43,697 nucleotides of DNA, taken from positions 1 through 43,697 of the forward strand of contig RECQ01000066.1 of assembly GCA_007693965.1 (NCBI GenBank), written 5' to 3'. The translations under genes and the position numbers were made by a program. The notes below the pieces were generated by a model. It was not told the DNA's origin. It saw only the letters and a list, made by a program, of their open reading frames with translations, and ran no database searches. Each line of letters opens with the position of its first letter. Position 1 is the stretch's first letter. The DNA is from Phycisphaeraceae bacterium (GTDB taxonomy: Bacteria; Planctomycetota; Phycisphaerae; Phycisphaerales; UBA1924). Positions 15,128 through 32,489 of this stretch are shown one piece after another.

Positions 15128-15187
15128 GGTCGGCTCCTTTTGTGTTCCGGGGGTTCCGGCGCCGGCGCTTGCCGGGCGGTCTCGGGC

Positions 15188-15216
15188 ATAATAGTATATC
15201 ATTATCCAATTATCAA
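15188..15216 (-). promoter_or_regulatory. ric promoter with embedded TGGAT-N4-ATATM operator
   Basis: Reading the minus strand, a -35 TTGATA (15211-15216) and a -10 TATTAT (15188-15193) are 17 bases apart, a near-ideal vegetative promoter. The spacer contains TGGAT-AATG-ATATA (15195-15208), the motif shared with six other promoters here. A protein bound there would block RNA polymerase, so repression is the simplest reading. The site may also serve the divergent hemerythrin gene. Confidence 0.7.
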
Positions 15217-15267
15217 GTTTTATCACGCCTCTTCCGCCGATGGTCATTCCAGCAGGATCCAGCCGCC

Positions 15268-15807
15268 ATGCCGCACAAGCAACTGAAACGTCATGACGCA
15301 CTCCAGCCGCTCTCGCGTGAGCATTTCAACGGGCTGGTCCTGGCCCGCAGGCTCCGCGAGGCGGCCGGGGGCGACGCCGAGGCGGGCCGGCGAGCCCTGC
15401 GCGAGCTCGACGCCGCCTGGCGGAACGAGCTCGAGGGCCACTTCGAGGATGAGGAGCGGCTGCTGGCCGGGCTCGTGCCCGCCGACATGGAGCGCCGACT
15501 GCACGACGAACACGCGGCGATCCGCACTCTGGCGATGCGTCTGCTGCGATCGTCGCCCGCCGCGAGCGAGGAGCTCACGCGGTTCGCGTCGATGCTGCAG
15601 AAGCACATCCGCTGGGAAGAGCGCGAGTTATTTCCCGCCGCGGAAGACGCCGCGACCGAGGAGCAGCTCGCGTTCATCGCCGAGCACACACAGCGTGTCG
15701 AGCGCGATCGGCCCGGCGCCCGCAAGCACAAGAGCGGCGTCGCGCCCTTCAGGCCGTGGGACCCGGGATCTTCAGACGAACTGAGCGACGCGGGAGGCCG
15801 ACCGTGA
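15268..15807 (+). CDS. Hemerythrin HHE cation-binding domain protein
   Basis: A 179-residue soluble helical protein with hemerythrin-like ligands: KRHDALQPLSREHFNG near the start, GHFEDEERLL, LHDEHAAIRTLAMRL and HIRWEERELFPAAE. Such proteins bind a non-haem di-iron centre and sense or bind O2 or NO. The ATG at 15268 has an AGGA-like element upstream. Its stop overlaps the GTG start of the following NnrS gene (GTGA), so both are made from one mRNA. It is divergent from the RIC gene across an AT-rich promoter region. The C-terminal 35 residues are charged and probably disordered. The exact ligand is not readable from sequence. Confidence 0.85.
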   Translation: MPHKQLKRHDALQPLSREHFNGLVLARRLREAAGGDAEAGRRALRELDAAWRNELEGHFEDEERLLAGLVPADMERRLHDEHAAIRTLAMRLLRSSPAASEELTRFASMLQKHIRWEERELFPAAEDAATEEQLAFIAEHTQRVERDRPGARKHKSGVAPFRPWDPGSSDELSDAGGRP

Positions 15808-17255
15808 CGACGTTGCACACCAGCGCGACCGATGGCGGACGTCTTCGCGTCGCGGGCTGGCTCCGCGGCGTTGTCTCGTGGATGGCGCCGCTCGACTCCG
15901 TCTACCGTCCGTTCTTCATCGCGGCGATCATCGCCGGCCTGACCGCCGGCGCCGCGTGGGGCGTGTGGCTGCTGGTCGAGATCGGGCGGACCGGCTCGTT
16001 CACCGGCGTTTCGATCCACACCGTCAATGCGCACGGACACGCGCAGATCTTCGGCTGGATCGGCCTGTTCGTGATGGGCTTCGCGTACCACGTCCTGCCG
16101 CGGCTGTGGAGGTCGGCGCCGGTCGCCCCGGTGGCGGCGGGGTCTAGTTTTCTGCTGATGATCGGCGGGCTGACGCTGTGTGTGATCGGCACCGCGCTTG
16201 CGACGCGGTGGGGGGCCGCGCCGACGGTCGCCGCGGCGGGCGGCGGGCTGATGTTCGGCGCGACGCTTGTCTTCTTCTTCTCGCTGCTCGGCGTGTTCCG
16301 CAGGTCTGAGGCGCTGCGGACGCCGTGGGTTGCGTTCGTCTTCGTCGGCCTGGCCTTCTTCGCGCTCTCGACGCTCTACAACGCCTGGCACGTCTGGATG
16401 ACCACCGCAGCGCCGAATCGCGAGGCGCTGCTCTACGCCGTGAGCACGCACCAGGGAGCGCTGCGGAACCTGCAGCTGCATGGCTTTGCGCTGTTCATGA
16501 TCCTGGGCATGTCGATGCGTCTCATCCCGCCGCTCTTCGGCGCGAGGCTGACGCCCGATCGGCCCGCGTGGATCGCGCTGTGGCTGCTGCTGGCGGCGGT
16601 GGTGGTCGAGACCGGCGCTTTCCTCGCGTTCCAGTGGACCGGCTCGCGCGTCATGGCGGGGGGGATGTGGATGGCGTGGCTGCTGCTGCCGATCGGCGTG
16701 GGGCTGGTCGCGCTGCCGTGGAGGCTGTGGGCGCCGCTGCCGCTGGGCGGACGGGCGAGCAAGTTCGTGCGGGCGGCGTACATCTGGCTGGCCGTCGCGC
16801 TGGCGATGCTCATCGCCTTGCCGCTGTACCAGTTCGTAAGCGGGCAGGCCTTCAGCCATGCCTATTACGGGGGCGTCCGCCACGCGTACACGGTGGGCTT
16901 CATGTCGATGATGATCATGGGGATGGCGGCGAAGGTCGTTCCCACGTTCCGGCGTGTTGATGAACGCGCGCTGACAAACCTGTGGGGGCCGTTCCTGCTG
17001 GTGACGATCGGCTGCGCCCTGCGCGTGACGCTTCAGATCGCGACCGACTGGCGCGACAGCGCGTTCTGGATCGTGCCGGTCAGCGGCGGGATGGAGCTGA
17101 CGGGGCTCACGTGGTGGGGGGCCCACCTGGCGACCCTGATGCTGCGAGACCCGGACCGGCGCCGGGGTGGGGACATCGCCCTGCCCATTGCGGACCAGAC
17201 CGACGCGGCGGCGGCGCCGGGATCGGGGCGAGAAAACGCCGGGAACCGGCCCTGA
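15804..17255 (+). CDS. nnrS: NnrS family haem-copper membrane protein
   Basis: A 483-residue polytopic protein with about twelve hydrophobic helices, starting from a GTG that overlaps the previous stop. The N-terminus YRPFFIAAIIAG is the typical NnrS entry. Histidines likely to bind haem or copper are in VNAHGHAQIFGWIG, LHGFALFMILGMSMR and RHAYTVGFMSMMIMGM, the last close to the NnrS consensus HA-TVG. NnrS proteins protect against nitric-oxide damage and are usually controlled by NO-sensing regulators. The neighbours RIC and hemerythrin fit this. A more distant relation to haem-copper oxidase subunit I is the alternative description. The C-terminal tail (about 35 residues) is cytoplasmic and Ala/Gly-rich. 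Confidence 0.82.
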   Translation: MTTLHTSATDGGRLRVAGWLRGVVSWMAPLDSVYRPFFIAAIIAGLTAGAAWGVWLLVEIGRTGSFTGVSIHTVNAHGHAQIFGWIGLFVMGFAYHVLPRLWRSAPVAPVAAGSSFLLMIGGLTLCVIGTALATRWGAAPTVAAAGGGLMFGATLVFFFSLLGVFRRSEALRTPWVAFVFVGLAFFALSTLYNAWHVWMTTAAPNREALLYAVSTHQGALRNLQLHGFALFMILGMSMRLIPPLFGARLTPDRPAWIALWLLLAAVVVETGAFLAFQWTGSRVMAGGMWMAWLLLPIGVGLVALPWRLWAPLPLGGRASKFVRAAYIWLAVALAMLIALPLYQFVSGQAFSHAYYGGVRHAYTVGFMSMMIMGMAAKVVPTFRRVDERALTNLWGPFLLVTIGCALRVTLQIATDWRDSAFWIVPVSGGMELTGLTWWGAHLATLMLRDPDRRRGGDIALPIADQTDAAAAPGSGRENAGNRP

Positions 17256-17319
17256 AGCGAGTCGGGACGGCCGCCAGGGCGGCGGGAGGGGATCTTCGAC
17301 CGTTCCACGCCTCAAGGAC

Positions 17320-17361
17320 TTGCCCGGCCCGTCCGAAAGAGATAAAATGGATAACAATATC
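17320..17361 (+). promoter_or_regulatory. nos operon promoter and TGGAT-N4-ATATC operator
   Basis: A -35-like TTGCCC (17320-17325) and a -10 TAAAAT (17343-17348) are 17 bases apart. The shared motif TGGAT-AACA-ATATC occupies 17348-17361, immediately downstream of the -10 and over the likely transcription start. The cytochrome c start codon is 48 bases further on. The local AT-rich composition is unlike the surrounding GC-rich DNA. Confidence 0.65.
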
Positions 17362-17409
17362 TAGATACCAACATATTGGCGCCGCCCGCGGCGCATTGGA
17401 GCGTGAGGC

Positions 17410-17949
17410 ATGACGAAGCATGGGCAGGCAGTCGGCAGGAATCGGAGCGAGGCCCGGGGCGACCAGGCGGAGACTGGCGGCGGCAGGACGCTACTCGCGT
17501 TTGGCGTGACCGTGGGCTTGCTGGTGTGCATGTTCACGTTCACCGCGGCCCTCGTCAGCGTGATGCAATGGTCGCTCAGTAGTGATGAAGTGACCGTCGT
17601 CGCGCGGCGCGTCGATCCCGCCATGGAGGCGCAGCGAATCGTGCAGTCTGATGCCTTCGCACGAGGCAAGGGGCATTACATGAACACCTGCACCGCGTGC
17701 CACACCCCGGAAGGCTACGGCATGCAGGGGCTGGGGCTGAACATCGTTCTCGGCGCCGTCTCCTCGAACTCCTCAGACCAGGAGCTGGCGGACTTCATCT
17801 GGCGCGGACGCAACCCCGGCGATTCGAGCAATCAGACCGGAAGGGACATGCCCTCGCGGGGCGGGAATCCGGCGCTGAGCAGGGACGACGTCCATGACAT
17901 CGTCGTATACATCCGCGGCCTGGAGGCGAAGGCGGAGGCGGGCATGTGA
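17410..17949 (+). CDS. Membrane-anchored monohaem cytochrome c of the nos operon
   Basis: A 179-residue protein. One transmembrane anchor (LLAFGVTVGLLVCMFTFTAA, about residues 33-52) follows a basic N-terminus and leads to a periplasmic class I cytochrome c domain. That domain has the haem motif CTACH near residue 94 and a likely axial Met in the RDMPSRGGNPALS segment. The C-terminal helix (DIVVYIRGLEAK) is typical. The position directly upstream of nosZ suggests it donates electrons to nitrous oxide reductase, like the NosC cytochromes of clade II operons. The ATG at 17410 has GGAG upstream. The gap to nosZ (17950-18073) shows no gene and no obvious promoter. Confidence 0.85.
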   Translation: MTKHGQAVGRNRSEARGDQAETGGGRTLLAFGVTVGLLVCMFTFTAALVSVMQWSLSSDEVTVVARRVDPAMEAQRIVQSDAFARGKGHYMNTCTACHTPEGYGMQGLGLNIVLGAVSSNSSDQELADFIWRGRNPGDSSNQTGRDMPSRGGNPALSRDDVHDIVVYIRGLEAKAEAGM

Positions 17950-18073
17950 GCGACTCGGACAAAGCACCGAAGCATCGCCTTCGCGCGATCGAGCAGAGAC
18001 ACCATTTCGGCAACCCAACGAAAACCGGAGTAGTCGGACAGATCGTCGCAGACACCGGGAAAGGATTATTGAG

Positions 18074-20074
18074 ATGCGGACATTGCTGATCATCGGAACC
18101 ACATTCGCGCTCGCGGGCGCCTGGCTTTCCGGCTGCGGCGGGGCCGACGAAACGAGACGGACGGCCAACGCCGCCGCCCTCGGCTCTAGCGCCGCCCGCA
18201 TCGTCGAGGCTCGGAATCTGACTCCGGAAAACGTCGAGGCGGCGCTCAAGACCTACATGCCGAGCGGACAGCACGACGAGTTCGTCATGTTCGCTTCCTC
18301 CGGGCACGCCGGGCAGATCATCGTCATCGGCATCCCGTCGATGCGGATCCTGCGCACCATCGCCGTGTACACGCCCGAGTCGTGGCAGGGCTGGGGCTTC
18401 GGCATGGGGAACGACGTCATCGCCGCGGGCGCTGTCGACGGGAAGACGATGACCTGGGGCGACACGCACCATCCAGCCATCAGCCGCAGGAACGCCGAAT
18501 ACGACGGCGAGTGGCTCTTCATCGCCGACAAGGCCCACGCGCGCATGGCCGTCATCGATCTGCGCACCTTCCAGACCAAGCAGATCGTGAAGAACCCCAT
18601 CGCGCTGAGCGACCACGGCGGCGCCTTCGTGACGCCGGACACCGAGTACATCATCCAGGGCGGCCAGTACGGCCACCCGCTGGGATGGGAGTACGCCCCC
18701 ATCGAGCAGTACGAGGAGATGTACCGCGGGCACGTCACCTTCTGGAAGTTCGACCGCGAGCGCGGGCGCATCGACATCGACAAGTCTTTCGCTCTTGAGC
18801 TGCCGCCCTACTGGCAGGATCTGGTGCAGGTCGGATGGGGGCCGAGCGACGGCTGGCTCTTCATGAACTCGATCAACACCGAGCTCCACACCGGCGGCGT
18901 GCTCGAAGGCGAGCCGCCCTTCGAGACCGGCGTGTCGCAGAGCGACATGGACTTCATGCACATCATTCCCTGGCGCAAAGCGGTCGAGACGTTCGAGGCC
19001 GGCAAGTTCGACCGCATCAAGGGCTTCCCCGTCATCAGCCTGGACACCATCCGCAGCGAGGAGCTGCTCTACTTCGCCCCCGAGCCCAAGAGCCCGCACG
19101 GCGTCGACCTCGCGCCCGGCGGCGAGTTCATCGTCGTCGCAGGAAAGCTTGATCCGCATGTCACCATCTACAGCATCGAGAAGCTCAAGCAGGCGATCAA
19201 TGAGCGGAACTACACGATCGATGAGAACTACGGCATCCCGATCCTCGATTTCGACTCGGTTGTCGAGGCGCAGGTCGAAGTGGGCCTCGGCCCGCTGCAC
19301 ACGCAGTTCGACGACAAGGGGTACGCCTACACCTCGCTCTTCCTCGACAGCGCCGTCGCCCGTTGGACGCTCGGAGGCCCGTACGCGGACAAGAACCCCG
19401 ATCAGCCGTGGAGCCTCGTCACCACAACGCCCGTGCACTACAACATCGGCCACCTCGCCACCGTCGCCGGCGACACCGCCAAGCCCGAGGGCAGGTATCT
19501 GGTGGCTCTGAACAAGTGGTCCGTCGACCGCTTCACGCCGGTGGGCCCGCTGCTGCCGCAGAACCTCCAGCTTCTTGACATCTCGCAGCCCGGCACGGAC
19601 ATGCCGGTGCTCTACGACATGCCTATGGGCATCGGCGAACCGCACTACGCCCAGATCATCCGCGCCGACAAGCTCAAACCCTGGCGCGTCTATCCGGAGA
19701 TCGGCTGGGAGGCTCTCAAGGGGGCCGTAAGCCCGAACGCCACCACACGTGGTCAGGAGCGCATCGAACGCGACGGCGATACGGTGCACGTCTACACCAC
19801 CGTGGTCAGGAGCACCTTCCGGCCCGATCGCGTGATCGTGCGCGAGGGCGATCGCGTCGTCTGGCATCTCACCAGCATCGAGCGCACCATGGATGCGATC
19901 CACGGCTTCACGATTCCCGGCTTCAACATCATGACCAGCATCGAGCCGGGCGAGTATCAGCGCCTCGAGTTCATCGCCGACAAGGCCGGCGTCTACCCCT
20001 TCTACTGCACCGAGTTCTGCTCGGCGCTGCATCTGGAGATGATGGGCTACTTCATCATTGAGCCGGCCTCCTGA
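18074..20074 (+). CDS. nosZ: Nitrous oxide reductase, clade II, lipoprotein form
   Basis: A 666-residue enzyme reducing N2O to N2 in the periplasm. The N-terminus is a Sec lipoprotein signal with lipobox LSGC (C21), not a Tat signal, which is a clade II trait. The beta-propeller supplies the CuZ histidines, including H78 (SSGHAGQ), H132/H133 (DTHHP), SDHGG and LHTQFD. The C-terminal cupredoxin domain has the CuA set C645-x3-C649-x3-H653-x2-M656. The ATG at 18074 is preceded by AAAGGA. It lies second in the operon behind a cytochrome c and ahead of nosDFYL. All catalytic ligands I can check are intact, so activity is expected. Lipid anchoring would keep the enzyme at the membrane near its cytochrome donor. 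Confidence 0.97.
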   Translation: MRTLLIIGTTFALAGAWLSGCGGADETRRTANAAALGSSAARIVEARNLTPENVEAALKTYMPSGQHDEFVMFASSGHAGQIIVIGIPSMRILRTIAVYTPESWQGWGFGMGNDVIAAGAVDGKTMTWGDTHHPAISRRNAEYDGEWLFIADKAHARMAVIDLRTFQTKQIVKNPIALSDHGGAFVTPDTEYIIQGGQYGHPLGWEYAPIEQYEEMYRGHVTFWKFDRERGRIDIDKSFALELPPYWQDLVQVGWGPSDGWLFMNSINTELHTGGVLEGEPPFETGVSQSDMDFMHIIPWRKAVETFEAGKFDRIKGFPVISLDTIRSEELLYFAPEPKSPHGVDLAPGGEFIVVAGKLDPHVTIYSIEKLKQAINERNYTIDENYGIPILDFDSVVEAQVEVGLGPLHTQFDDKGYAYTSLFLDSAVARWTLGGPYADKNPDQPWSLVTTTPVHYNIGHLATVAGDTAKPEGRYLVALNKWSVDRFTPVGPLLPQNLQLLDISQPGTDMPVLYDMPMGIGEPHYAQIIRADKLKPWRVYPEIGWEALKGAVSPNATTRGQERIERDGDTVHVYTTVVRSTFRPDRVIVREGDRVVWHLTSIERTMDAIHGFTIPGFNIMTSIEPGEYQRLEFIADKAGVYPFYCTEFCSALHLEMMGYFIIEPAS

Positions 20075-20208
20075 CGTGTTTCTCCTCCTCCCCAGAGCGG
20101 CCGCGGGGCGATCCCGGGGGCTTGCGCCGTGACGCGCTGAGCCCGCACACCCATCCGGGACGCCCCGGCGGGCCGGATGGTCCGCCGCACGCACACGGAG
20201 TTCGTCCG

Positions 20209-22296
20209 ATGAACAGCAGCTCGCGCCGACACACCGACGGGAAACGCACGAAGGCGTCGCCCCGGCGCGTTCCGCTCGCGATGGCTCGCGCGCTCTTCGC
20301 GGTCGCGGCCCTGCTGCTCATCGTCTCATTCTTCCAGCCCTACTGGAAGATGACGCTCCAGGCGCCGCAGTACCCCCAGGGCCTCACGGTGCAGGCCTAC
20401 CTGCATGGATTGACGGGCGATGTCGATGAAATCGACGGACTGAACCATTACATCGGCATGCGCCCATTGGAGGAAGCGGCGCAGCTCGAACGCCAATTCT
20501 CGCCCGTGATGATCGGCGTCATGTCGGCGATGCTGCTGGCAGCGATGTTCGTTCCGAGGGTGTGGGCGACGCTGCTGGCGCTGCCGGTCGTCTTCTTCCC
20601 ACCGGGATTTCTACTGGATCTGTTCTTCTGGCTGCACCACTTCGGGCAGAACCTCGATCCCACCGCGGCGTTGTCGAGCTCGGTCAAGCCGTTCACGCCT
20701 CCCGTCCTCGGCGTCGGCAAGGTTGGCAACTTCCGCACAGTGGCGGGCGCGGACACGGGGCTGTACATGGCCGCCGCTGCGTCGCTTCTGGTGATCGCGG
20801 GGATCGCGCTGCGGTGGCGGGCGCACGGGAAGAGCGCGCAGTCGGCCGCGGCGGCGCCGGCGGCGGGTCGCCTCGGCGCATCCGCAGTTGCAGCGTGCGC
20901 AGCGGTGATTGTGTTCAGTGTCTCGGCGCGCACTGGCGCCGATGGTGCGGCTCCTCGTTTCGACATCCACGAGGCGATCCGCGCCGCCGACGAGGGCGCC
21001 ACGATCGTGGCGCCCTCGGGCGTGTACGACGCCCCGATCATCCTCGATCGCTCCGTGAGGCTCATCGCCGAGCGGGGCGCCGTGATCGACGCCTGCGGCC
21101 GGGGAAACGGCGTGCGCATCACCGCACCGGGCGCCGAGCTGCACGGCTTCACGATCCGCAACACCGGCGCCAGCCTCCACGAAGAGAACACGGGCGTGCT
21201 CGTCCTGGCGCCTCGAGCGGTCATCGAGAACAACACGATCGAGAACGCCCTTTTCGGAATCAGCCTCAAGAACGCATCGGGCTCGATCGTGCGCGGCAAT
21301 ACGATCGTCGGCATGGACTTGCACGTGGCCCGGCGCGGCGACGGGATCCGCGCGTGGCACAGCAACGACCTCATCATCGAGGGGAACACCGTCCGGGCCG
21401 TGCGCGATGTGGTCGTGTGGTACTCCGAGCGGGTCGCTCTCACGGACAACCACATTGTGGACAGCCGCTACGGACTGCATTTCATGTACTGCCACGACAA
21501 TGTTCTCACAGGCAACCGCCTCGAAGGAAACTCAGTCGGCGCCTTCCTGATGTACAGCCGCAACATCATGGCCCGGCGCAATACGATTCTGAACAACCGC
21601 GGCCCCAGCGGCTACGGTATCGGCCTCAAGGACATGCAGGGCGTGACGATCGAGGAGAACGCCATCGTCGGCAACCGCGTTGGCATCTACTTCGACAATC
21701 CGCCCATGTTCGAGGCGGCGCACGACGAGTTCCGCGCCAACCTGATCGCATACAACGACGTCGGCGTGCTGCTCCAGCCGCTGGTGAGCCAGGTCGCGAT
21801 CTTCGAGAACAGCTTCATCGAGAACATCCAGCAGGTCGGCATCCGGGGCGGCGGCGAGCTGCGGGGCAACGAGCTGACGCGCGACGGCCGCGGCAACTAC
21901 TGGAGCGACTACCGAGGCTTCGACCTCGACGGCGACGGCGTGGGAGACCATCCCCACCGCGTCGAGGGGTTGTGGGACAGCCTGGTCGATCGCGAGCCGG
22001 CGCTCCGACTCTTCCTGTACAGCCCGGCGCAGCAGGCGGTCGAGTTCGCCGCTTCCGCGTTCCCCGTGGTCCGACCTCGACCGATCGTCTCGGACGGGGC
22101 GCCGCTGATGCGCCCGGCGCACACATCGCCGACGCCGGAAGACGAGAGCGATCCGCGCTGCTTCGCGCTGCTGGCCGGCGCTCTCCTGACCATCGTCGCC
22201 ATCACGCTCGTCGGCGCGATGACCTCCTTCGGTCCGACGCGCCGCGCCGGGCGCCCGACGAAATCGCACACACTGAAAGCCGAGGCGTCCCGATGA
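20209..22296 (+). CDS. nosD: NosD copper-site assembly protein fused to an N-terminal membrane domain
   Basis: A 695-residue fusion. Residues 1-240 are a membrane region with about four or five hydrophobic helices and a periplasmic stretch (FQPYWKMTLQAPQYPQGL ... LNHYIGMRPL). The family is not firmly known to me; it may correspond to the separate NosB-type membrane protein of other clade II clusters. From about 260 the NosD part begins: right-handed beta-helix CASH repeats with periodic Asn-Thr-Ile steps (ENNTIENALFGISLKN, GNTIVG, GNTVRAV) and the conserved GRGNYWSDYRGFDLDGDGVGD. A C-terminal helix re-enters the membrane. NosD works with NosF and NosY in CuZ assembly. The ATG at 20209 has GGAG upstream. 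The gap 20075-20208 shows no gene. Confidence 0.88.
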   Translation: MNSSSRRHTDGKRTKASPRRVPLAMARALFAVAALLLIVSFFQPYWKMTLQAPQYPQGLTVQAYLHGLTGDVDEIDGLNHYIGMRPLEEAAQLERQFSPVMIGVMSAMLLAAMFVPRVWATLLALPVVFFPPGFLLDLFFWLHHFGQNLDPTAALSSSVKPFTPPVLGVGKVGNFRTVAGADTGLYMAAAASLLVIAGIALRWRAHGKSAQSAAAAPAAGRLGASAVAACAAVIVFSVSARTGADGAAPRFDIHEAIRAADEGATIVAPSGVYDAPIILDRSVRLIAERGAVIDACGRGNGVRITAPGAELHGFTIRNTGASLHEENTGVLVLAPRAVIENNTIENALFGISLKNASGSIVRGNTIVGMDLHVARRGDGIRAWHSNDLIIEGNTVRAVRDVVVWYSERVALTDNHIVDSRYGLHFMYCHDNVLTGNRLEGNSVGAFLMYSRNIMARRNTILNNRGPSGYGIGLKDMQGVTIEENAIVGNRVGIYFDNPPMFEAAHDEFRANLIAYNDVGVLLQPLVSQVAIFENSFIENIQQVGIRGGGELRGNELTRDGRGNYWSDYRGFDLDGDGVGDHPHRVEGLWDSLVDREPALRLFLYSPAQQAVEFAASAFPVVRPRPIVSDGAPLMRPAHTSPTPEDESDPRCFALLAGALLTIVAITLVGAMTSFGPTRRAGRPTKSHTLKAEASR

Positions 22297-23183
22297 TCAC
22301 CGCCACGAACCTGACGAAGAACTTCGGCCGCTTCCGCGCCCTCGACGGCGCGAGCTTCCACGTCGGCGACGGCGAGGCGGTCGCGCTCTGGGGCGCCAAC
22401 GGCGCGGGCAAGACCACCGCGATCCGCTGCGCGCTCGGGTTGCTGCGGCATCGCGGGTCGGTGCGGATCGGCGGCGTCGATGTCCGCCGCGACCCGCGCG
22501 CAGCTCGCAGACAGGTGGGGTATGTGCCGCAGGAGCTGGCGTTCCACGACGACCTGCGCGTCATCGAGACCATGCGTTTCTACGCGCGACTGCGTCGGGT
22601 CCAGCGCGAGCGGATCGATGAATCGCTCGAGACCGTCGAGCTGGCGCGGCACGCTCGCAAGCGCGTCCGTGAGCTCTCCGGGGGCATGAAGCAGCGGCTG
22701 GCGCTGGCGCTCGCTCTGCTCTCCGATCCCGCCGCCCTGATCCTGGACGAGCCGACCTCGAACCTCGACGCGGCGGCCCGGCGCGACTTCACCGCGCTGC
22801 TGCGGGCCCAGAAACGATCCGGCAAGACGATCCTCTTCAGCTCGCACCGCATCGACGAGATCGAGGCGCTCGGCGATCGCGTGGTCGGTCTCGACCAGGG
22901 ACGCATCTCGTTCGAGTGCGCGCCGGGGGAGCTGGTCCGGGCGGCCGACCTGCGCTGCACGCTGCAGGTCGTCGTGCCGAGCGAGCAGCTCGACGAGGCG
23001 ATGCGGGTGCTTCGCGCCGGTGGGTATGCGGCGTCCCGCAATGGATCCGCGGTGTACATCGAGACGCTCGCCGACCGCAAGGCCGAGCCCATCATCGCTC
23101 TCGGCGCCGCGAGAATCTCCGTACGCAACTTCGACCTGAGCGCCGACGATCACTCGGCCCAGCTCTCCGGAGGTGAATCATGA
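22293..23183 (+). CDS. nosF: NosF ABC transporter ATPase
   Basis: A 296-residue ATP-binding subunit. Walker A is GANGAGKTT (about 34-42), the Q-loop is YVPQE, the ABC signature is LSGGMKQRLALA, Walker B is ALILDEPTSNLD and the switch His is in FSSHRIDE. About 80 residues beyond the nucleotide-binding domain form the C-terminal extension common in NosF. It powers the NosFY complex that, with NosD, supplies a sulphur species for building the copper-sulphur CuZ site. The start codon overlaps the nosD stop (ATGA) and the stop overlaps the nosY start (ATGA), so translation is tightly coupled. Confidence 0.95.
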   Translation: MITATNLTKNFGRFRALDGASFHVGDGEAVALWGANGAGKTTAIRCALGLLRHRGSVRIGGVDVRRDPRAARRQVGYVPQELAFHDDLRVIETMRFYARLRRVQRERIDESLETVELARHARKRVRELSGGMKQRLALALALLSDPAALILDEPTSNLDAAARRDFTALLRAQKRSGKTILFSSHRIDEIEALGDRVVGLDQGRISFECAPGELVRAADLRCTLQVVVPSEQLDEAMRVLRAGGYAASRNGSAVYIETLADRKAEPIIALGAARISVRNFDLSADDHSAQLSGGES

Positions 23184-24972: not shown

Positions 24973-25015
24973 GCCCGGGGGCTCTGCGCTCTGCGCCGGG
25001 GCCGGGTGTACACTG

Positions 25016-25029: not shown

Positions 25030-25047
25030 CAAGGACAGGATTCCCAC

Positions 25048-25587
25048 GTGATCTCACAAACCACCGAGTATGCGCTGCGGGCCATCGTCGATCTCTCGTT
25101 CCACGCCGGCGCTTCGCGCACGACGCAGCAGATCGCCGAGGCCACGCAGGTTCCCGCCGGATATCTCTCGAAGGTGCTCAAGGAGCTGAGCAGGCAGGGC
25201 GTCGTCCGGGCGCAGCGCGGCCTGCACGGCGGCTTCACGCTCGAGATCGATCCAGAGGAGCTGACTCTGTACGACGTGATCGCCGCGGTCGATCCCCCCA
25301 AGCGCATCCATGAGTGCCCGCTGAAGCTCGAAGCCCACCGCCACAACCTCTGCCCGCTGCACCAACGCCTCGACGACGCGCTGGCGATGATCGAGAAGGT
25401 CTTCCGCGAGACCACCATCGCCGAGGTCACCGCCGATCCGACACGCGTGCCGCTCGGACGGCGCTCGAAACGCGGCGCCGAGTTGACCATCAGCGGCGGG
25501 CTGGCGCCGATCGCCTCCAACTCGCGCCCGAAGAAAGGCAAAGGGTCGGCCAAGGGGGCCGGAGGTCGCGGCGGCCGCAAGCGATGA
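25048..25587 (+). CDS. Rrf2-family transcriptional regulator
   Basis: A 179-residue DNA-binding protein. Residues 1-80 are the Rrf2 winged helix (ISQTTEYALRAIVDL, QQIAEATQVPAGYLSKVLKELSRQGVV, GLHGGFTL). The usual metal-loop region has only two Cys, C90 and C102, plus His 88, 97, 99 and 105, compared with three Cys in IscR, NsrR and RirA. An iron-sulphur cofactor with mixed ligands is possible. The tail from 135 on is Lys/Gly-rich and disordered. The start is a GTG with AAGGACAGGA upstream. It lies directly behind nosL. NsrR-type relatives sense nitric oxide, which fits the neighbourhood. A copy of the shared promoter motif lies just upstream, so it is the best local candidate for binding that motif. 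Confidence 0.9.
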   Translation: MISQTTEYALRAIVDLSFHAGASRTTQQIAEATQVPAGYLSKVLKELSRQGVVRAQRGLHGGFTLEIDPEELTLYDVIAAVDPPKRIHECPLKLEAHRHNLCPLHQRLDDALAMIEKVFRETTIAEVTADPTRVPLGRRSKRGAELTISGGLAPIASNSRPKKGKGSAKGAGGRGGRKR

Positions 25588-25600
25588 AGTCGGGCGCCGC

Positions 25601-27058
25601 TCATGTCCGCGGCGCTATCGCCTCGATCACGTCCCGGGCGTGATACGAAAGGCGCCCGGCCGAGATGAACGGCCTCACGCAGTCGATGTCGTCGCCCGCC
25701 GTCAGGAGCGGGGGCTCCCTGTACCCGTCCGCCCGCCGCTGCCCGAGGCCGATGTTCGCGACCAGGGCGTTGCACAGGCACTTGCGGCCGACGGTGTCTT
25801 CTACTTTGCCGCCCTTGCGGACATAGTCCTCCACGGGCTCGGCCGGACAAAGATACCCGAGCGTTCCGTCCGGCTTGCGGTAGGCGCGCCGCAGGTATCC
25901 AAGGTCGCACAGCCGCGGGCGCTCTTCGTAGACGGCCGCGTCCGACAGCGTCTCCGACAGCGCCGCCACCTTGAACGGGAAACTCGTCGGCGACGCGGCG
26001 GGGTCGGTGAAGACGCCGCCCTCGCCCCGCAGCACGCCCGCGAGATATCGGCGCCGGAGCTCGGGGTCCAGGCCGGACTCCTCGCAGAACGCGAACACCG
26101 TTCCCACCTGGACGCCGCGCGCGCCCGCGGCCAGCGCTGCGCTGAATTTCTCCTGCGAGGCGTGCCCGCCCGCGACCCAGAAGGGAACCCCCAGCGCGGC
26201 CATCTGCGCCAGGTCCACCTCGTCGCGCGGGCCGTAGATCGGCTCGCCATCGATCGACAACTGCTGCACGCCGCGCGGCGGGGCGTTGTGCCCGCCCGCG
26301 ATCGGCGCTTCGACGACGAAGCCGTCGATCCCGCCCGGGGCTTTCTTGAGCAGCGCGCGGGCGAGCGTCGTCGAGGACACGATCGCCAGAAACTGCGGGC
26401 GGCGGAGCGGCCGGTCGAGGACCGGGGTTTCCGCGCTCCACAGCGACGCGGGGTCGAACGACAGTGGATATCGCTCATCGTGCGCATCCTGCACGTCCAG
26501 CGCGATCTCGACCCTCTCGTGCCGGGCGAGCCGGTCGAGCACGGCCGGGATGTCGCCCGGGATTCCCGCGCCCATGATCACCACGTCCACGCCCGCCAGC
26601 ATGGCGCCGTACAGGCTCGGCAGCGTCGGGAACTGGATCTTGTGCAGGTAGTTGATGCCCACGACGCCCCCGTGGCCTTCCTTCGCGAGAAACACCTCGA
26701 CGAAGTTCGCCAGGATCAGCAGCCACTCTCGGGCCGGCTTCATCTTCGCGCGCAGCAGCGGCAACTGCCTGTAGCGATGGCGGGGGGCGTCTCCGTCAGC
26801 GGTCGGCGCCTCATTCTCGGCGTCATCTCTTCGGAAGAATTGTTCCAGCGTGTCGCGGACGATCCCCTGCGCGGGGAAGGCCGCCATGGCGCGGCGCAGA
26901 CTCCCGCCGGGATCGCCGCGGCCCAGCCGTCGAACAAGGATCGTGTCCAGCGCGGTTCCCGAGACCACGCCGAGCTGTCCGTGCGAAGCCACCTCGCGGG
27001 CCAGAGGCCAGCCGGAGACGCCCGCTCCCATTCCTCCCTGAATCAGTCTTGGAAGCAT
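25601..27058 (-). CDS. Nitronate monooxygenase / 2-nitropropane dioxygenase family flavoprotein
   Basis: A 485-residue FMN-dependent TIM-barrel protein. Recognisable segments are PRLIQGGMGAGVSGWPLA at the N-terminus, GVVGINYLHKIQFP, MGAGIPGDIPAVLDRLA, FVVEAPIAGGHNAPP with the His used by this family, VPFWVAGGHAS and RGVQVGTVFAFCEESG. The length is greater than classical nitronate monooxygenases (about 320-380) because of a longer C-terminus containing CLCNALVANIGLGQRR. That resembles the PfaD/enoyl-reductase-like branch, so nitronate oxidation is not assured. The ATG at 27058 gives MLPRLIQGG; a TTG one codon earlier is also open. It lies downstream of pdxH on the same strand and converges on the Rrf2 gene. 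Confidence 0.82.
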   Translation of the reverse strand: MLPRLIQGGMGAGVSGWPLAREVASHGQLGVVSGTALDTILVRRLGRGDPGGSLRRAMAAFPAQGIVRDTLEQFFRRDDAENEAPTADGDAPRHRYRQLPLLRAKMKPAREWLLILANFVEVFLAKEGHGGVVGINYLHKIQFPTLPSLYGAMLAGVDVVIMGAGIPGDIPAVLDRLARHERVEIALDVQDAHDERYPLSFDPASLWSAETPVLDRPLRRPQFLAIVSSTTLARALLKKAPGGIDGFVVEAPIAGGHNAPPRGVQQLSIDGEPIYGPRDEVDLAQMAALGVPFWVAGGHASQEKFSAALAAGARGVQVGTVFAFCEESGLDPELRRRYLAGVLRGEGGVFTDPAASPTSFPFKVAALSETLSDAAVYEERPRLCDLGYLRRAYRKPDGTLGYLCPAEPVEDYVRKGGKVEDTVGRKCLCNALVANIGLGQRRADGYREPPLLTAGDDIDCVRPFISAGRLSYHARDVIEAIAPRT

Positions 27059-27116
27059 CAATCTTCGCTCCGATGGCTTACCGGCGAGTAGAGTTCACGG
27101 GCAGCGGCCTGCGGCG

Positions 27117-27806
27117 TCAGGCGCCGAGGCGGCACGCGGACCAGCAGGGCGCGTCTGAATCCGGATCGCGACGCCACAGCGCGCGGTCGTGGAGCCTGCC
27201 GCTGGCGGCGGACCAGAGCTCGATGCGCTCTGGGATGATGCGGTAGCCGCCCCAGTGCGACGGGCGGCGCAGCTCGGCGCCCAGCGCGGCCTGCGCGCCG
27301 ATGCGCAGCGCCTCGCCGATCACGCCCTCGCGCGATTCGATCGCACGGCTCTGCGGGCTCACGTTGGCGCCGATCCTCGCGAGGAGCGGGCGCGTGCGGA
27401 AATAGGCGTCGCTCTCGTCGTCGGTGGTGCGCACGACGCGGCCCTCGACCCTCGCCTGGCGCATGGCGTGCGGCCAGTGGAATACCGCCGCCGCCCTGGG
27501 GTTGGCCTCGAGCTCCCCGCCCTTCCTGCTCTCGTAGATGGTGTAGAACACGAGCGCCGGGGGATCGAGCTCGAGCGCTTTGCACAGCACGATGCGGGCG
27601 GATGGGGCGCCGTCGGGCGTGGCGGTGGCGAGCGTCATGGCGTTGAAGTCGTCGTAGCGGCCGCTGTGTTTCGCGTCCTCGTACCACGCCGCCAGCAGCG
27701 GCATGGGGTCGGAGGGCAGCGGGTCGGGCAGGTCGTTGCACGCGACGAGGCTGGAGAGGCTGCTGATGATTCTGTTTGGCTTCACGGCGCGCGTGGTGGT
27801 TGTCAT
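27117..27806 (-). CDS. pdxH: Pyridoxamine/pyridoxine 5'-phosphate oxidase
   Basis: A 229-residue FMN enzyme making pyridoxal 5'-phosphate. Family segments are NAMTLATATPDGAPSARIVLCK, YTIYESRKGGELEANPRAAAVFHW, ARVEGRVVRTTDDESDAYFRTRP, SHWGGYRIIPERIELW and the terminal RLHDRALWRR, with the Arg/His residues that bind the substrate phosphate. It lies 48 bases downstream of the PLP-dependent lyase gene, so cofactor supply and user are adjacent. The ATG at 27806 is directly preceded by the palindrome GGATTAATCC, leaving little room for a standard ribosome binding site. The N-terminal 30 residues before the conserved region are normal for the family. Confidence 0.93.
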   Translation of the reverse strand: MTTTTRAVKPNRIISSLSSLVACNDLPDPLPSDPMPLLAAWYEDAKHSGRYDDFNAMTLATATPDGAPSARIVLCKALELDPPALVFYTIYESRKGGELEANPRAAAVFHWPHAMRQARVEGRVVRTTDDESDAYFRTRPLLARIGANVSPQSRAIESREGVIGEALRIGAQAALGAELRRPSHWGGYRIIPERIELWSAASGRLHDRALWRRDPDSDAPCWSACRLGA

Positions 27807-27816
27807 GGATTAATCC
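27807..27816. promoter_or_regulatory. 10-bp palindrome touching the pdxH start codon
   Basis: GGATTAATCC is a perfect palindrome immediately upstream of the pdxH ATG. Its half sites GGAT/ATCC are the same as the weak dyad in the shared promoter motif, but the spacing is two rather than six. It could be a translation or transcription control site, or chance. Confidence 0.3.
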
Positions 27817-27854
27817 CGGGTGCTGCGTTGTGTTCGGTCATGGATGCTGAAGCG

Positions 27855-29366
<1,512 letters not shown>

Positions 29367-29410
29367 CTACTATTGCCCGCCCGCGCCGCGGCGACGGGTT
29401 CCGCAGAGGC

Positions 29411-31381
29411 TTACCGACGGTCGCCGGAAGCCTGAAGCGACCTGAGCCGCCAGACTCGGGCCTCGGAGGCGCGGCCGGCGGCGTCGAGCATCTGGGCCCC
29501 GATCGCGTATCGCAGCGCCGCGGCGTCGGGCTCAAGCTCCGCCGCGCGCTCGAGGTGGACAAGCGCCTCGTCCGTCCGGCCTCGCTGCGAGAGCGCGATG
29601 GCGAGACGATGGGGGATGGACGCGTCCTGCGGCCGCAGTTTCTGCGCGGTCAGGAGCCGCCCGATTCCCTCATCGAGCCGCCCGGAGCGGAAGTACAGCG
29701 CCGCGAGCATCTCCTGCGACTCGTGGAGACGCGGGTTCGCCTCGACCGCTTCACGCAGGCGCTCGATCGCCACTTCATGGCGGCCCTGGAGCAGGATGAT
29801 CTCCGCGAGCCCGACGACGACCGCATCCGTCTCCGGCGCCCGCGACAGGGCCCGCTCCATCGCGGACTCCGCGCCGGGCAGGTCGCGCAGCGTCATGCTG
29901 AGCCATGCGATGCGCACATCGTTGGAGGGTGTGTCCGTCAGCCCGATCCCGCCGGAGCGCCAACCGGAGGCGCGCCGGTAATGGGCCAGCGCGCCCGCCG
30001 CGGCTCGGCGCTGCTCCTCCGGCACGCCGGCGCTCAGATCGAAGACCAGATCGCGAGAGACGGTGACGCGGTCGTCGTACATCGACGCCCGCCAGGTGTG
30101 GAATCGAACGAGCCCGCCCTGCGCCAGCAGTCCGGCGCCGAGGGCGCTGAGCGCGATGAACGCGAACCCCGCCGGTCTGAGGCGCCCCGCGCGCCGGAGC
30201 TGGAAGCGATGCAGACGGACGTTGTCATCCTCCGTGAGCCGGAGCAGCTTCCATCCGATCGGGAGCGCACAGATGGCGATGCCGACCGCGAAGAGGAGGG
30301 GGAAGATGTCGTACAGGCCGCGGAGGATGAAGAGCGTGAGCAGGAAGAACACGAGCAGAATCAGCTCTTCGGAGAGCGTGACATCCCGTTTCGGCTTCGC
30401 AGCGCCGGCCTGGCCTTGCGGGGCGGCGTTGCGGGCGCCCTGGCTTGAAGGCTTCTTGAAGCGGAACTTCAGCGCGTTCTGCGGGCAGACCATCACACAG
30501 TCGAGCGTGCGGACGCAGCGGCTGTCTGTCACGGCGCCGCCGACGCGGAGGTCGTCGAGCACGCGCACGCCGGAGGTGCAGTTGGCCGTGCACATGCCGC
30601 AGGCGTCGCATTTGTCCGGATCGACGATGATGCGGCCCGGCGCCAGCTTCGACACGGGCTTGAAGATTCCGCCATAGGGGCAGCCGTAGTTGCAGAATCC
30701 GCGCGCGCCGAGGAAGTAGACGGTCGCAAAGCCGCAGACCAGGAGGAAGGGGATCGCCACCAGGGCGTTCGGCAGCCCCGACCACATCTCGGTGGTCGTC
30801 CACAGCGCGCTCCAGCCCGGGAAGGGCTGGACGGGTCCGATCCACGCCAGGCCCGCCGGCCACACGCGTTCGAGCAGCGGCGCCAGCGCCTCGCGCCGAA
30901 AGGTCGGCCATGCGAACATGTACAGCGCGAGAAAAACGGGAATCCACGGCAGCAGCCGGGCGCGGAATGGCGCGGGGCGCAGGCCGAACTTGCGAAGGAT
31001 CCACAGGCACAGGTCCTGCAGCGCCGCCATGTGGCACGCCCAGCCGCAGAAGAATCGGCCGAAGAGAAGCGTTGTGAGAATCAGGATGCAGAAGAGGACG
31101 AAGGCGGGATTGATCTGCCCGAGCTCGAGCGTCTTCATGGCGTTGGAGAGCACGACGGGCGCCATGGTGCGCTCTGCGGTCAGCCAGTGGACCACGTGGA
31201 GCAGGATCAGGATGTGGACGGCGATCAGCGCGAGGGCTCGCCATCGCCCCAGTGGCCGGCGCCGCGGCTGGAGTGGTCGGCCGGACCGGCGGGGCGGGGG
31301 CTCCTTCAGCACGGTGAGCGACACGCGCCGTTCGCCGCGGCGTGAACGTCTCACGCTCGAACTTCCGGCGATCCTCCCCAT
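29411..31381 (-). CDS. NapH/NosR-like membrane polyferredoxin with C-terminal TPR domain
   Basis: A 656-residue membrane protein; residue numbers here count from the ATG at 31381. After an Arg-rich N-terminus come transmembrane helices with paired cysteine motifs CGWAC (112-116) and CNYGC (230-234), as in NapH and the NosR C-terminal half. A cytoplasmic ferredoxin module follows: CDACGMCTANC (258-268) is complete, while CVRTLDCVMVCP (289-300) lacks one of the four usual Cys. Two further helix regions lead to a periplasmic part and about four TPR units ending the protein. There is no FMN-binding domain, so it is not a full NosR. It probably passes quinol electrons to periplasmic reductases such as NosZ. 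An ATG at 31441 would sit almost against the operator, so I prefer 31381. Confidence 0.82.
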   Translation of the reverse strand: MGRIAGSSSVRRSRRGERRVSLTVLKEPPPRRSGRPLQPRRRPLGRWRALALIAVHILILLHVVHWLTAERTMAPVVLSNAMKTLELGQINPAFVLFCILILTTLLFGRFFCGWACHMAALQDLCLWILRKFGLRPAPFRARLLPWIPVFLALYMFAWPTFRREALAPLLERVWPAGLAWIGPVQPFPGWSALWTTTEMWSGLPNALVAIPFLLVCGFATVYFLGARGFCNYGCPYGGIFKPVSKLAPGRIIVDPDKCDACGMCTANCTSGVRVLDDLRVGGAVTDSRCVRTLDCVMVCPQNALKFRFKKPSSQGARNAAPQGQAGAAKPKRDVTLSEELILLVFFLLTLFILRGLYDIFPLLFAVGIAICALPIGWKLLRLTEDDNVRLHRFQLRRAGRLRPAGFAFIALSALGAGLLAQGGLVRFHTWRASMYDDRVTVSRDLVFDLSAGVPEEQRRAAAGALAHYRRASGWRSGGIGLTDTPSNDVRIAWLSMTLRDLPGAESAMERALSRAPETDAVVVGLAEIILLQGRHEVAIERLREAVEANPRLHESQEMLAALYFRSGRLDEGIGRLLTAQKLRPQDASIPHRLAIALSQRGRTDEALVHLERAAELEPDAAALRYAIGAQMLDAAGRASEARVWRLRSLQASGDRR

Positions 31382-31447
31382 GGGTCTGCTTGCGCCCTCC
31401 CGCCGCCCGGCGCGAGGGCGAGAACGCAGGCGCGGGGGCATAAAGTC

Positions 31448-31461
31448 AATATTTGAATCCA
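31448..31461 (-). promoter_or_regulatory. Shared operator before the polyferredoxin gene
   Basis: On the minus strand TGGAT-TCAA-ATATT matches the motif at nine of ten positions. A -10-like TATAAA lies directly upstream, so the site covers the likely transcription start, as in the nos operon promoter. Confidence 0.6.
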
Positions 31462-31633
31462 TTTATACTAATATACGCCCGCCGCAGGTCGAGCCCCGGC
31501 TCCCGAATCGGATGGAGATATTCGCCGGGTCGGCCGGCCCGGCCCGGGGCGGACGATTCCCGGACCGTGGCGGCCCGGGCGGGTGGCTGGGGAAAACCCC
31601 GGCAAAATCCGCGTCTTTCCCTTGCACAATATG

Positions 31634-31647
31634 TGGATGCATATATC
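31634..31647 (+). promoter_or_regulatory. Shared operator before the Reeler-like gene
   Basis: TGGAT-GCAT-ATATC is an exact match to the motif, and here it is part of a dyad GGAT-N6-ATCC. It lies 56 bases before the start codon, just downstream of an AT-rich CACAATAT that may be the -10 region. The region between the polyferredoxin gene start and this gene (31382-31703) has no other gene. Confidence 0.62.
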
Positions 31648-31703
31648 CTGTTTTATGCCTCCCGGCCGCAGGCTGGGGCCGGGAGAGGAGGGAGCTTCCG
31701 GAC

Positions 31704-32408
31704 ATGTCGTGCCGTTCGATCGCGAGTTTGGGATTGCTGGCGGGATTGGCGCTGACGTGGTTCGCGTCGCCAGCCTCCGGCTTCCGGGGCGGCGCCCCGT
31801 CGGGATTCACCGGCAGCCCCGGCGACGGCGCCTTCTCATGCAATTTCTGCCACACCGAGCCGCCGGGGTCGGGGCTCGTGCAGATTCTCGGCGTCCCTGG
31901 CGCCTACCAGCCGGGGCGGCTCTACACGCTCACGGTCCGCGTCTCCGACCCGGAGAAGTTCGGCGCCGGCTTCCAGATCACCGCCGAGAACGCGGAGGAC
32001 GAGAAGGTGGGCGGGTTCGAGATCATCGATCCCAACACGCTCTACGCCGACGGTCTGACCCCCTGGGTGACGCACAGCGCCGAGGGCGTGGACAATTCGG
32101 CCCAGCACTGGTCGTCGATGGGGGGCGCCTTCGAGTTCAAGGTGGGCTGGCGACCGTCCGCGGGCTCGACAGCCGGTCCGATCACATTCTACGCCGCGGG
32201 AAACGCGATCAACAACGACCAGTTCCACACCGGGGATCGCATCTACTTCGCCAGCGAGACCACGGAATACGGCGGATGCCTCTGGGACCTGAACGGAGAC
32301 GGGCGGATCGATTCGATCGACCTGACGACGCTGCTCCAGTCGTGGGGCGATCCTTACGGCGCGGCCGAGCTGGGGGAGATGCTGGGTAGCTGGGGCCCGT
32401 GCCCGTGA
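31704..32408 (+). CDS. Secreted Reeler-like protein with one haem-c motif and a dockerin-like tail
   Basis: A 234-residue exported protein with a Sec signal peptide (MSCRSIASLGLLAGLAL ... ASG). The mature part begins with FTGSPGDGAFSCNFCHTE, holding one CxxCH haem-binding motif. It continues as a beta-sandwich typical of Reeler or choice-of-anchor domains (YTLTVRVSDPEKFGAGFQIT ... ITFYAAGNAINND). The C-terminus has one EF-hand-like dockerin repeat (DLNGDGRIDSIDLTTLL) and ends GSWGPCP, a style frequent in Phycisphaerae-type planctomycetes. Its role is unknown. It sits between the polyferredoxin and NXR-like operons and carries the same promoter motif, so a periplasmic or surface electron-transfer role is possible. 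The ATG at 31704 has GGAGGGAG upstream. Confidence 0.75.
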   Translation: MSCRSIASLGLLAGLALTWFASPASGFRGGAPSGFTGSPGDGAFSCNFCHTEPPGSGLVQILGVPGAYQPGRLYTLTVRVSDPEKFGAGFQITAENAEDEKVGGFEIIDPNTLYADGLTPWVTHSAEGVDNSAQHWSSMGGAFEFKVGWRPSAGSTAGPITFYAAGNAINNDQFHTGDRIYFASETTEYGGCLWDLNGDGRIDSIDLTTLLQSWGDPYGAAELGEMLGSWGPCP

Positions 32409-32441
32409 GCCCGCACGCCCGCCAGATTCTGTGAGCGCGTC

Positions 32442-32489
32442 TTGACAGGCGGCCGATATCCTAGATACTGATAATTGGATGCAGATATC
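32442..32489 (+). promoter_or_regulatory. NXR-like operon promoter and shared operator
   Basis: A consensus -35 TTGACA (32442-32447) and a -10-like GATACT (32464-32469) are 16 bases apart. TGGAT-GCAG-ATATC (32476-32489) is an exact motif match just downstream. The preceding bases TGATAAT are identical to those before the ric site, so similarity extends beyond the core. The gene start is 26 bases further on. Confidence 0.68.

Follow-up and report, generated by a model that had tools for sequence, protein, structure and literature searches.

How is the removal of nitrous oxide (N2O) controlled in planctomycetes that carry clade II nos genes? Bacteria with clade II nosZ are a sink for this greenhouse gas, and the switching of their nos genes seems to have been little studied. 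The question is raised by a 43,697-nucleotide stretch of a Phycisphaeraceae genome (contig RECQ01000066.1 of assembly GCA_007693965.1, analysed over its full length and hereafter called the window), which holds a clade II nos operon and a gene for an Rrf2-family regulator. A sequence-only reading of this DNA had proposed that seven copies of a 14-bp pattern, TGGAT-N4-ATATC, tie its nitrogen-oxide genes into one local regulon, perhaps read by the Rrf2 protein. Our analysis shows that the motif is real: it is concentrated in the window and conserved before nos. Judging from sequence comparison, it belongs to a palindrome that is very probably the switch predicted to control N2O removal in these planctomycetes, and the nos-linked Rrf2 protein is the likely reader, a predicted binder of this element. 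No published account of such an operator was found in the open-licence literature, judged by titles and the starts of abstracts.

The 14-bp pattern turned out to be part of an even palindrome of about 24 bp, T[CG]GATATMTRKA|TMYAKATATC[CG]A, a consensus that is our own reading of overlapping expectation-maximization (EM) results. Exact 14-mers stand at three places (17348, 31634 and 32476) and, as claimed, copies with one mismatch at 15195 (before ric), 25016 (rrf2) and 31448 (the polyferredoxin gene). The site before the tyrosine phenol-lyase gene had been placed out of register, at 29348-29361, where by our own count six rather than seven of the ten positions match on either strand; nine of ten match 6 bp away, at 29354-29367 (TGAATAAGTATATC). 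Symmetric EM and matrix scans replaced the asymmetric 14-mer by the longer element as the unit and, because this element is a palindrome, the orientation of a site toward its gene means little. The AT-rich islands in which the sites had been said to lie are apparent when their flanks are printed, in a window of 67% GC. With up to two mismatches allowed, the 14-mer occurs 32 times in the window against 12.9 expected (none of 100 shuffles reaches 32), and many of these two-mismatch matches are therefore due to chance.

In the nos promoter of one relative (G035, locus L031) the element forms a perfect 16-bp palindrome, TGGATAAAAATATCCA, and the sites of the window are imperfect versions of TGGATA-N4-TATCCA, with three mismatches to this 16-mer at the polyferredoxin gene. 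Symmetric EM on the window promoters together with those of G046, the closest relative, returned TGGATA-N4-TATCCA at width 16 and ATATCTGGA|TCCAGATAT at width 18, and EM on the nos promoters of 13 relatives, with the window left out, gave TCGATATMTAKA|TMTAKATATCGA at width 24. In the relatives the log-likelihood at even widths far exceeded that of locally shuffled sequences (158 vs 49 ± 2 at width 24 and 137 vs 40 ± 3 at width 20), whereas odd widths were far lower (34 vs 32 at width 15, 42 vs 34 at 17 and 53 vs 39 at 19). In the window set odd widths also exceeded their nulls, yet remained below even ones (50 vs 36 at width 17, 60 vs 34 at width 16). These nulls, six shuffled sets per width, had smaller numbers of seeds and iterations than the runs on real data and are somewhat handicapped. 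A Fur-like reading of the GATAAT repeats at ric was rejected by eye, since Fur boxes have an odd centre and the signal sits in even widths.

Evidence that the element marks this locus comes from a matrix built on the 13 relatives' nos promoters alone. Applied to the window, it places six of the seven proposed sites in the top six positions, the next match scoring only 10.0. These are, in order, the operators of the nos operon (17348-17371, forward strand, 22.6), of the tyrosine phenol-lyase gene (29346-29369, reverse, 22.4), of an operon related to nitrite oxidoreductase (NXR; 32468-32491, forward, 18.5), of ric (15193-15216, reverse, 16.2), of a gene for a choice-of-anchor-V (Reeler-like) protein (31626-31649, forward, 15.6) and of the gene for a NapH-like polyferredoxin with TPR repeats (31446-31469, reverse, 13.3, the weakest of the six). 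Averaged over all seven regions, the score is 15.7; permuted matrices average 4.5, and none of 1000 reaches the observed value. The seventh site, in the rrf2 promoter (25014-25029, no strand assigned), departs from TGGATA-N4-TATCCA at two positions and its region scores 1.2 with the same matrix; of the seven proposed sites, this one is the weakest and is doubtful.

The same concentration is seen against the rest of the 3.48-Mb genome. The relatives' consensus, GATATMTNKATMNAKATATC, with up to three mismatches, matches four times, all four in the window (before nos, the phenol-lyase gene, the anchor-V gene and the NXR-like operon), and its reversed control not at all; the mismatch limit was set in the knowledge that four window sites pass, and what carries information is therefore the absence of any match elsewhere in the genome. 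The 16-mer TGGATA-N4-TATCCA with up to two mismatches occurs at 34 places, seven of them in the window (647, 15193, 17348, 25014, 29354, 31634 and 32476), where about 0.43 would be expected by length, and six of the seven precede genes named by the sequence-only reading. The match at 647-662, with two mismatches, lies far from the cluster under an open reading frame, is absent from the top 16 of the relatives' matrix and is probably due to chance. Part of the choice of this 16-mer was made after the window sites had been seen, a dependence that is weaker for the relatives' matrix and consensus, for the new loci described below and for 400 kb of other DNA of the same genome, in which scores of at least 13 occur four times (six in the window) and scores of at least 15 once (five in the window). 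The strongest outside site among the genome loci inspected (C73:81843-81866, 16.0/19.0) was set aside, as it lies within a coding frame. A profile model of the 24-mers (R1) gave nine rows in the window, all at five known sites, with E values of 0.39 to 8.4, and is too weak for genome-wide use. Many hits at random genomic positions, which the sequence-only reading had named as speaking against a regulon, are thus not what the 16-mer, GATATMTNKATMNAKATATC and 400-kb scans reveal.

Conservation was followed in 26 nos-bearing relatives, of which 25 regions were used (in G007 the contig begins inside nosZ); gene starts were estimated from tblastn edges, with an error of up to tens of bases. When the matrix of the seven window sites was applied to the nos promoters of these relatives, the mean best score was 11.6 against 5.5, a value reached by none of 300 column-permuted matrices, and in 13 of 25 cases the nos promoter contained the best match of its region (mean 5.4 for permuted matrices, nine of 300 reaching 13). 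Within the 13 relatives, leave-one-out scans ranked the nos site first of its region in 11 and second in two. We then turned to new nos loci taken from an alignment-based scan of genome contigs (a single-protein scan gave no relative): 80 were at hand, and removal of nine already used, which were identified by the length of their contigs, and of six with short upstream DNA left 65, 20 from planctomycetes and 45 from other or unnamed bacteria. In 19 of the 20 planctomycete loci, not all of which are independent since L276 closely resembles L106, the best match of the locus lay upstream of nosZ at a distance of up to 2.2 kb; the same held for 12 of the 45 others (Fisher 2e-7). Permuted matrices reached a mean of 6.4 and a maximum of 18 of the 20 planctomycete loci, with none of 500 attaining 19. 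The expectation that orthologous promoters keep the element was therefore borne out for nos by matrices applied both ways, by leave-one-out and by new loci.

Beyond nos the picture is less even. With a matrix averaged over relatives and window, which also underlies the NXR-like and Rrf2-locus scores and the site lists of the new loci, the best site of the locus precedes the tyrosine phenol-lyase gene in nine of 18 orthologous loci, clearly so in L158, L160 and L167. The element is strongly conserved before nos, moderately before the tyrosine phenol-lyase gene and weakly before the NXR-like operon; nos and the six units of the window are solid, and the wider regulon is probable, if patchy. As a side observation, NosZ (17894-20074) and Rrf2 of the window are 73% and 67% identical, respectively, to those of G046, which belongs to another family of the order, and NosZ identities within the window's own family are 57-63%; this closer similarity of NosZ to G046 than to the window's own family suggests that the nos/rrf2 block moved horizontally.

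The candidate reader is encoded on the forward strand at 25048-25587, with a GTG start at 25048, and belongs to the Rrf2 superfamily by PF02082 (102 bits, cut-off 30) and TIGR00738 (108 bits, cut-off 73). An Rrf2 gene occurs in 18 of the 20 new planctomycete loci and in 22 of the 25 nos regions of relatives, where it either precedes the cytochrome genes (group A) or follows nosL, the arrangement of the window (group B). Group A promoters carry a different even palindrome, TGGAYM-N4-KRTCCA (61.6 vs 23.2 ± 1.9 at width 16). L087 (the G046 locus), L088 and L097 stood in neither EM group, although the window's matrix was applied to them as well, L087 being joined later to the window set; L111, a short contig without Rrf2, was assigned to group B, as was L092 after the Rrf2 tree had been drawn, its promoter having been inspected beforehand. 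The tree, which carries no support values, follows operator type and not gene position: L092 combines the group A position with a group B protein and a GATATC-type promoter.

A single residue of the recognition helix follows the same division. The residue after Tyr-Leu is Ser or Ala in 12 group B nos-linked proteins, in two second copies, in the window (S41) and in G046, and Gln or His in nine of nine group A proteins. It aligns with a Glu of 4cic, an IscR chain from T. potens. It corresponds to IscR Glu43, ScNsrR Ala44 and Val43 of enterobacterial NsrR, and the position sets the site choice of IscR, according to the available text of two reports (PMC5411485, PMC10783083). In the new loci, sites next to proteins with Ser or Ala (n = 11, 13.4-29.4) score higher than those next to proteins with Gln (n = 6, 8.6-21.4; one-sided p 0.004), with overlapping ranges; L282, whose residue had not been read, was left out of this comparison, and for L240 the second Rrf2 gene, which has Ala, was used, the copy before nosZ having Gly. 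In non-planctomycete nos loci (L285, L266, L271 and L263), Rrf2 proteins with the pattern C-x6-C-x5-C have Thr at this position, which possibly corresponds to another operator alphabet.

Other linkages connect Rrf2 genes with the element or with the same partners. In L245, L232 and L240 rrf2 lies immediately 5' of nosZ, with the site just ahead of rrf2, and the promoters of 17 Rrf2 genes unlinked to nos (those with upstream DNA among 30 loci, picked after an earlier scan was seen) score 7.3 against 2.9 for permuted matrices, none of 1000 reaching the observed value. In G039, G043 and G055, genomes in which no nosZ match was found beyond a short weak one in one of them, ric and the NXR-like operon flank an Rrf2 gene; in G015, G032 and G025 such a gene adjoins ric. 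Separately, we noticed in G001 (L211:1893-6456) dense strong operator matches (22.5, 19.8 and 19.5) between an Rrf2 gene and an operon for cytochrome c7/c3, a 4Fe-4S protein, NrfD and a multihaem cytochrome. In G005 and G022 (L213:5143-8244 and L214:4245-7364), which have no nosZ match, operator-like sites lie between an Rrf2 gene and a divergent gene for a fused COX1-FixO (cbb3-type) oxidase.

At the putative sensing site, alignment shows E7, R11 and a C90-x6-H97-x4-C102-x2-H105 arrangement in the window Rrf2. All but two of the 25 aligned rows (L102 and L107) have the pattern C-x6-H-x3/4-C, and 24 of 25 have the N-terminal Glu/Arg pair, L107 having Asp/Arg. The Rrf2 proteins of nos loci in other bacteria show C-x6-C-x5-C in nine of 11 cases, so that the planctomycete His occupies the place of the middle Cys.

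Several observations weigh against this assignment. The nos site of G046, the closest relative, scores only 7.7 with the relatives' matrix (with the window's own matrix it scores 14.6, rank 1, and it matches the earlier 14-mer at nine of ten positions), and no site was found before rrf2 in this relative. The region before the window's own rrf2 is weak, as said above, and taken as a set the relatives' promoters of nos-linked rrf2 genes do not differ significantly from permuted matrices (2.5 vs 1.1, with 31 of 300 reaching the observed value). The phenol-lyase promoters of relatives rise only moderately above permuted matrices (six of 1000 reach the observed value) and at least five of the 18 have no site (L153, L154, L163, L166 and L169), while the NXR-like loci have sites above 10 in just two of seven relatives (L184, 16.7, and L188, 11.9), and Rrf2 adjoins the NXR-like operon in three of the seven relatives that strongly match the NXR-like cytochrome. 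The two operator types overlap: with the group B matrix, L094 and L098 of group A reach 15.7 and 14.1, and L255, with a Gln protein, 21.4. One background match in the 400 kb (L136, 16.6) outscores three of the six window sites, and the profile model of the 24-mers gave no match in the whole own genome at E values up to 10. Finally, the middle cysteine that NsrR and IscR possess is missing from the window Rrf2, and the Rrf2 proteins that precede nosZ in L245 and L240 have no cysteine pair at all, so that a sensing step at a metal site would not be general among relatives. Strong palindromes precede the genes of these two proteins (L245:2876 and L240:8285), which raises the question of whether they are cysteine-free readers of the same operator.

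The geometry of the promoters suggests how the element could act. A sigma-70-like consensus scan of 14800-33000 gave three matches against 1.1 expected, and all three abut or overlap operators, although such matches are not proof of promoters. At ric the match is TTGATA-N17-TATTAT (15216-15188) and the operator starts exactly on the -35 hexamer; at nos it is TTGCCC-N17-TAAAAT (17320-17348) and the operator begins where the match ends; at the NXR-like operon it is TTGACA-N16-GATACT (32442-32469) and the final two bases of its -10 hexamer fall within the operator. The operator ends 24 bp (NXR-like operon) or 38 bp (nos) before the start codon, and in L245 a TTGACA-N17-GATACT precedes a site that contains a perfect TGGATA-N4-TATCCA. 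Since the operators abut or overlap the -10 (nos, NXR-like operon) or the -35 (ric), they stand in the place of a repressor.

We therefore consider it probable, from these comparisons, that the palindrome serves a local regulon as its operator and that its reader is the nos-linked Rrf2 protein, which is predicted to bind it and to act by NsrR-like repression. An Rrf2 dimer would bind the even palindrome of about 24 bp and block transcription from the core promoters that it abuts or overlaps, an arrangement observed at the nos, NXR-like and ric promoters and assumed by us for the tyrosine phenol-lyase, NapH-like ferredoxin and anchor-V genes. A metal site, perhaps an iron-sulphur (Fe-S) cluster, may be held by some of E7, C90, H97, C102 and H105. 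The signal, most likely nitric oxide (NO) or a related nitrogen or redox species, would damage this site, whereupon Rrf2 would release the DNA and the six units would be switched on together by derepression. The idea of one local regulon tied together by a shared operator is thus supported by its concentration in the genome and its conservation before nos. Its description as a set of nitrogen-oxide genes is too narrow, as the tyrosine phenol-lyase, NapH-like/TPR and anchor-V genes carry the operator too. More tentatively, most nos-linked Rrf2 proteins of planctomycetes might form a distinct class of N2O/NO sensors, in which a Cys-x6-His-x3/4-Cys-x2-His plus Glu metal site replaces three cysteines and which has an even-palindrome code of its own, with one residue of the recognition helix toggling two operator alphabets; here such a sensor would gather N2O reductase, the NXR-like enzyme, Fe-S repair and tyrosine phenol-lyase in one regulon.

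Could the motif be merely the ordinary AT-rich core promoter (-35/-10) of a GC-rich genome? Every site does lie in an AT-rich island, with -10-like hexamers abutting or overlapping some of them. However, permuted matrices keep the base composition and none matches the observed scores (none of 1000 and none of 500), the signal is carried by even widths, few matches turn up in 400 kb from elsewhere in the genome, where AT-rich islands also occur, and the genome-wide consensus matches fall four out of four in the window. This explanation is largely refuted and we regard it as very improbable. A different possibility is that the palindrome is real and read by another regulator, a Crp/Fnr-type activator or an unlinked protein, with Rrf2 linked to nos for some other reason. 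Its inner core, TGGAT-N6-ATCCA, shares the 5-6-5 layout of Crp sites, and the sites before rrf2 are weak in both the window and G046. The own genome holds three partial matches to Crp/Fnr-type regulators, one of which, to HTH_Crp_2, lies slightly over the family cut-off (30 vs 27 bits); that match spans just positions 25-61 of 70, and the remaining two are below the cut-off. The linkage of Rrf2 to nos in both sets of loci and the variation of its specificity residue with operator type also speak for Rrf2, and operators lying 24 and 38 bp from start codons at a -10-like hexamer are unlike the sites of class II activators, which are centred near -41. We hold another reader to be unlikely.

Only a little more weight can be given to the view that Rrf2 reads the palindrome as an activator or as a dual regulator, in the manner of IscR, which represses and activates, and not as a simple repressor. 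The position of the operator indeed differs between promoters, because in several group B promoters with TTGAC upstream it covers, as judged by eye, the likely -10, and in ric the -35. In the three window promoters detected by the scan and in L245, however, the operator sits at the core promoter or likely start, the usual place of a repressor, and repression by Rrf2 remains the reading that we prefer.

The genes placed under this putative control were identified as follows. The ric product (14384-15127, reverse strand, start chosen at ATG 15127) is an iron-sulphur cluster repair di-iron protein by TIGR03652 (248 bits, cut-off 204.7). The nos operon (17410-24972, forward) encodes a cytochrome c, clade II (Sec-type) NosZ (TIGR04246, 812 bits, cut-off 625), NosD, NosF, NosY and NosL; NosD and the cytochrome c were found by Pfam-type domain search, as expected of a clade II cluster, nosF, nosY and nosL are presumptive names given from the usual gene order, and homologues of the operon keep their gene order in relatives. 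Tyrosine phenol-lyase (27855-29288, reverse) matches TIGR02618 with 763.6 bits (cut-off 720.7). The NapH-like ferredoxin (29411-31381, reverse, start chosen at ATG 31381) has Fer4 and TPR domains and falls below the cut-off of TIGR02163, and the anchor-V protein (31704-32408, forward) matches NF041895 (82 bits, cut-off 42) and has a dockerin-like tail, judged by eye. The NXR-like operon (32516-40724, forward) encodes a cytochrome c/ethylbenzene-dehydrogenase-like protein (PF09459 plus cytochrome c), type II DMSO-reductase-like alpha and beta subunits and a chaperone. Matches of its subunits to TIGR03479, TIGR03478 and TIGR03482 are all below the cut-offs, and 'NXR-like' therefore denotes a relative of the type II DMSO-reductase family and not a proven nitrite oxidoreductase.

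Three neighbouring genes were also noted. An NnrS-family protein (PF05940) is encoded between ric and nos (15756-17255), and no operator of its own was found in the window; in L087 an operator site lies between divergent nnrS and nos genes. Between rrf2 and the phenol-lyase gene lie genes for a nitronate-monooxygenase-like protein (25601-27061) and a pyridoxamine-5'-phosphate-oxidase-like protein (27117-27806); pdxH homologues are also found near Rrf2 genes in L089, L100, L104 and L221. A link of the latter gene to the supply of pyridoxal phosphate for tyrosine phenol-lyase is possible.

The regulation of nos becomes a testable question once an operator, a candidate binder and a predicted specificity residue can be named. 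The operator also predicts new functional partners, namely tyrosine phenol-lyase, the NXR-like molybdoenzyme and the anchor-V protein. If tyrosine phenol-lyase is truly under a nitrogen-oxide regulator, this would point to an unknown role of the enzyme, for example in the handling of tyrosine or nitrated aromatics during nitrosative stress.

How does this system compare with those already described? The best matches of the window Rrf2 among solved structures are 6y45 (E 1.6e-9) and 6hsd (3.1e-9), both of which we take to be RsrR, a [2Fe-2S] regulator of the family whose cluster is held by Cys, His and Glu. It differs from RsrR and from the founder Rrf2 in cysteine spacing and in having N2O respiration genes among its targets. 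The founder, in Desulfovibrio, represses the hmc electron-transport operon, as given in the available text of PMC1274295, and the Rrf2 gene that precedes an NrfD/multihaem operon in G001 recalls this case. IscR, which recognizes type 1 and type 2 sites, belongs to the same family, and its discriminating residue, Glu43 in the text available to us, occupies the position that varies here with operator type; its operator and targets are other ones, the window protein has two cysteines and it scores 49.5 bits with the IscR model TIGR02010 (cut-off 207.6).

The closest parallel is NsrR, an Rrf2-family repressor that senses NO, with nitrosative-stress targets of the ric/ytfE type and a palindromic operator at promoters. 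Its operator is described in PMC1274295, in the part available, as gATGyAT-N5-ATrCATc, an odd palindrome, and the spacing of the GAT half-sites is almost equal to that of GATAT-N10-ATATC here; the operator of the window is nevertheless even, with half-sites one base further apart and GATA instead of GATG, and in relatives the signal at even widths far exceeds that at odd ones. ScNsrR has Asp8 as a cluster ligand with Arg12 as its partner, as described in the accessible portion of PMC5411485, and E7 and R11 of the window protein fall at these positions in a register set by eye, with metal binding predicted only. C90 and C102 are spaced like the first and last NsrR cysteines, so that two of the three cluster cysteines (Cys93, 99 and 105 in ScNsrR) are present, with H97, seven residues after C90, near the middle one; the NsrR equivalog model NF008240 gives 44.1 bits against a cut-off of 182. 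The window regulator thus probably works like NsrR, yet model score, cysteine pattern and operator each show that it is not NsrR. Rrf2/BadM genes beside clade II nos clusters, with a suggested role in regulation (PMC3534657), and an enrichment of Rrf2 regulators on clade II scaffolds (PMC6264515) have been reported; these accounts share the linkage seen here and, in the text available from them, come without an operator, a regulon or a specificity residue. Rrf2 genes adjoining clade II nos, and NsrR regulons with an odd palindrome, were therefore known before; what this locus adds is a putative even-palindromic operator of its own.

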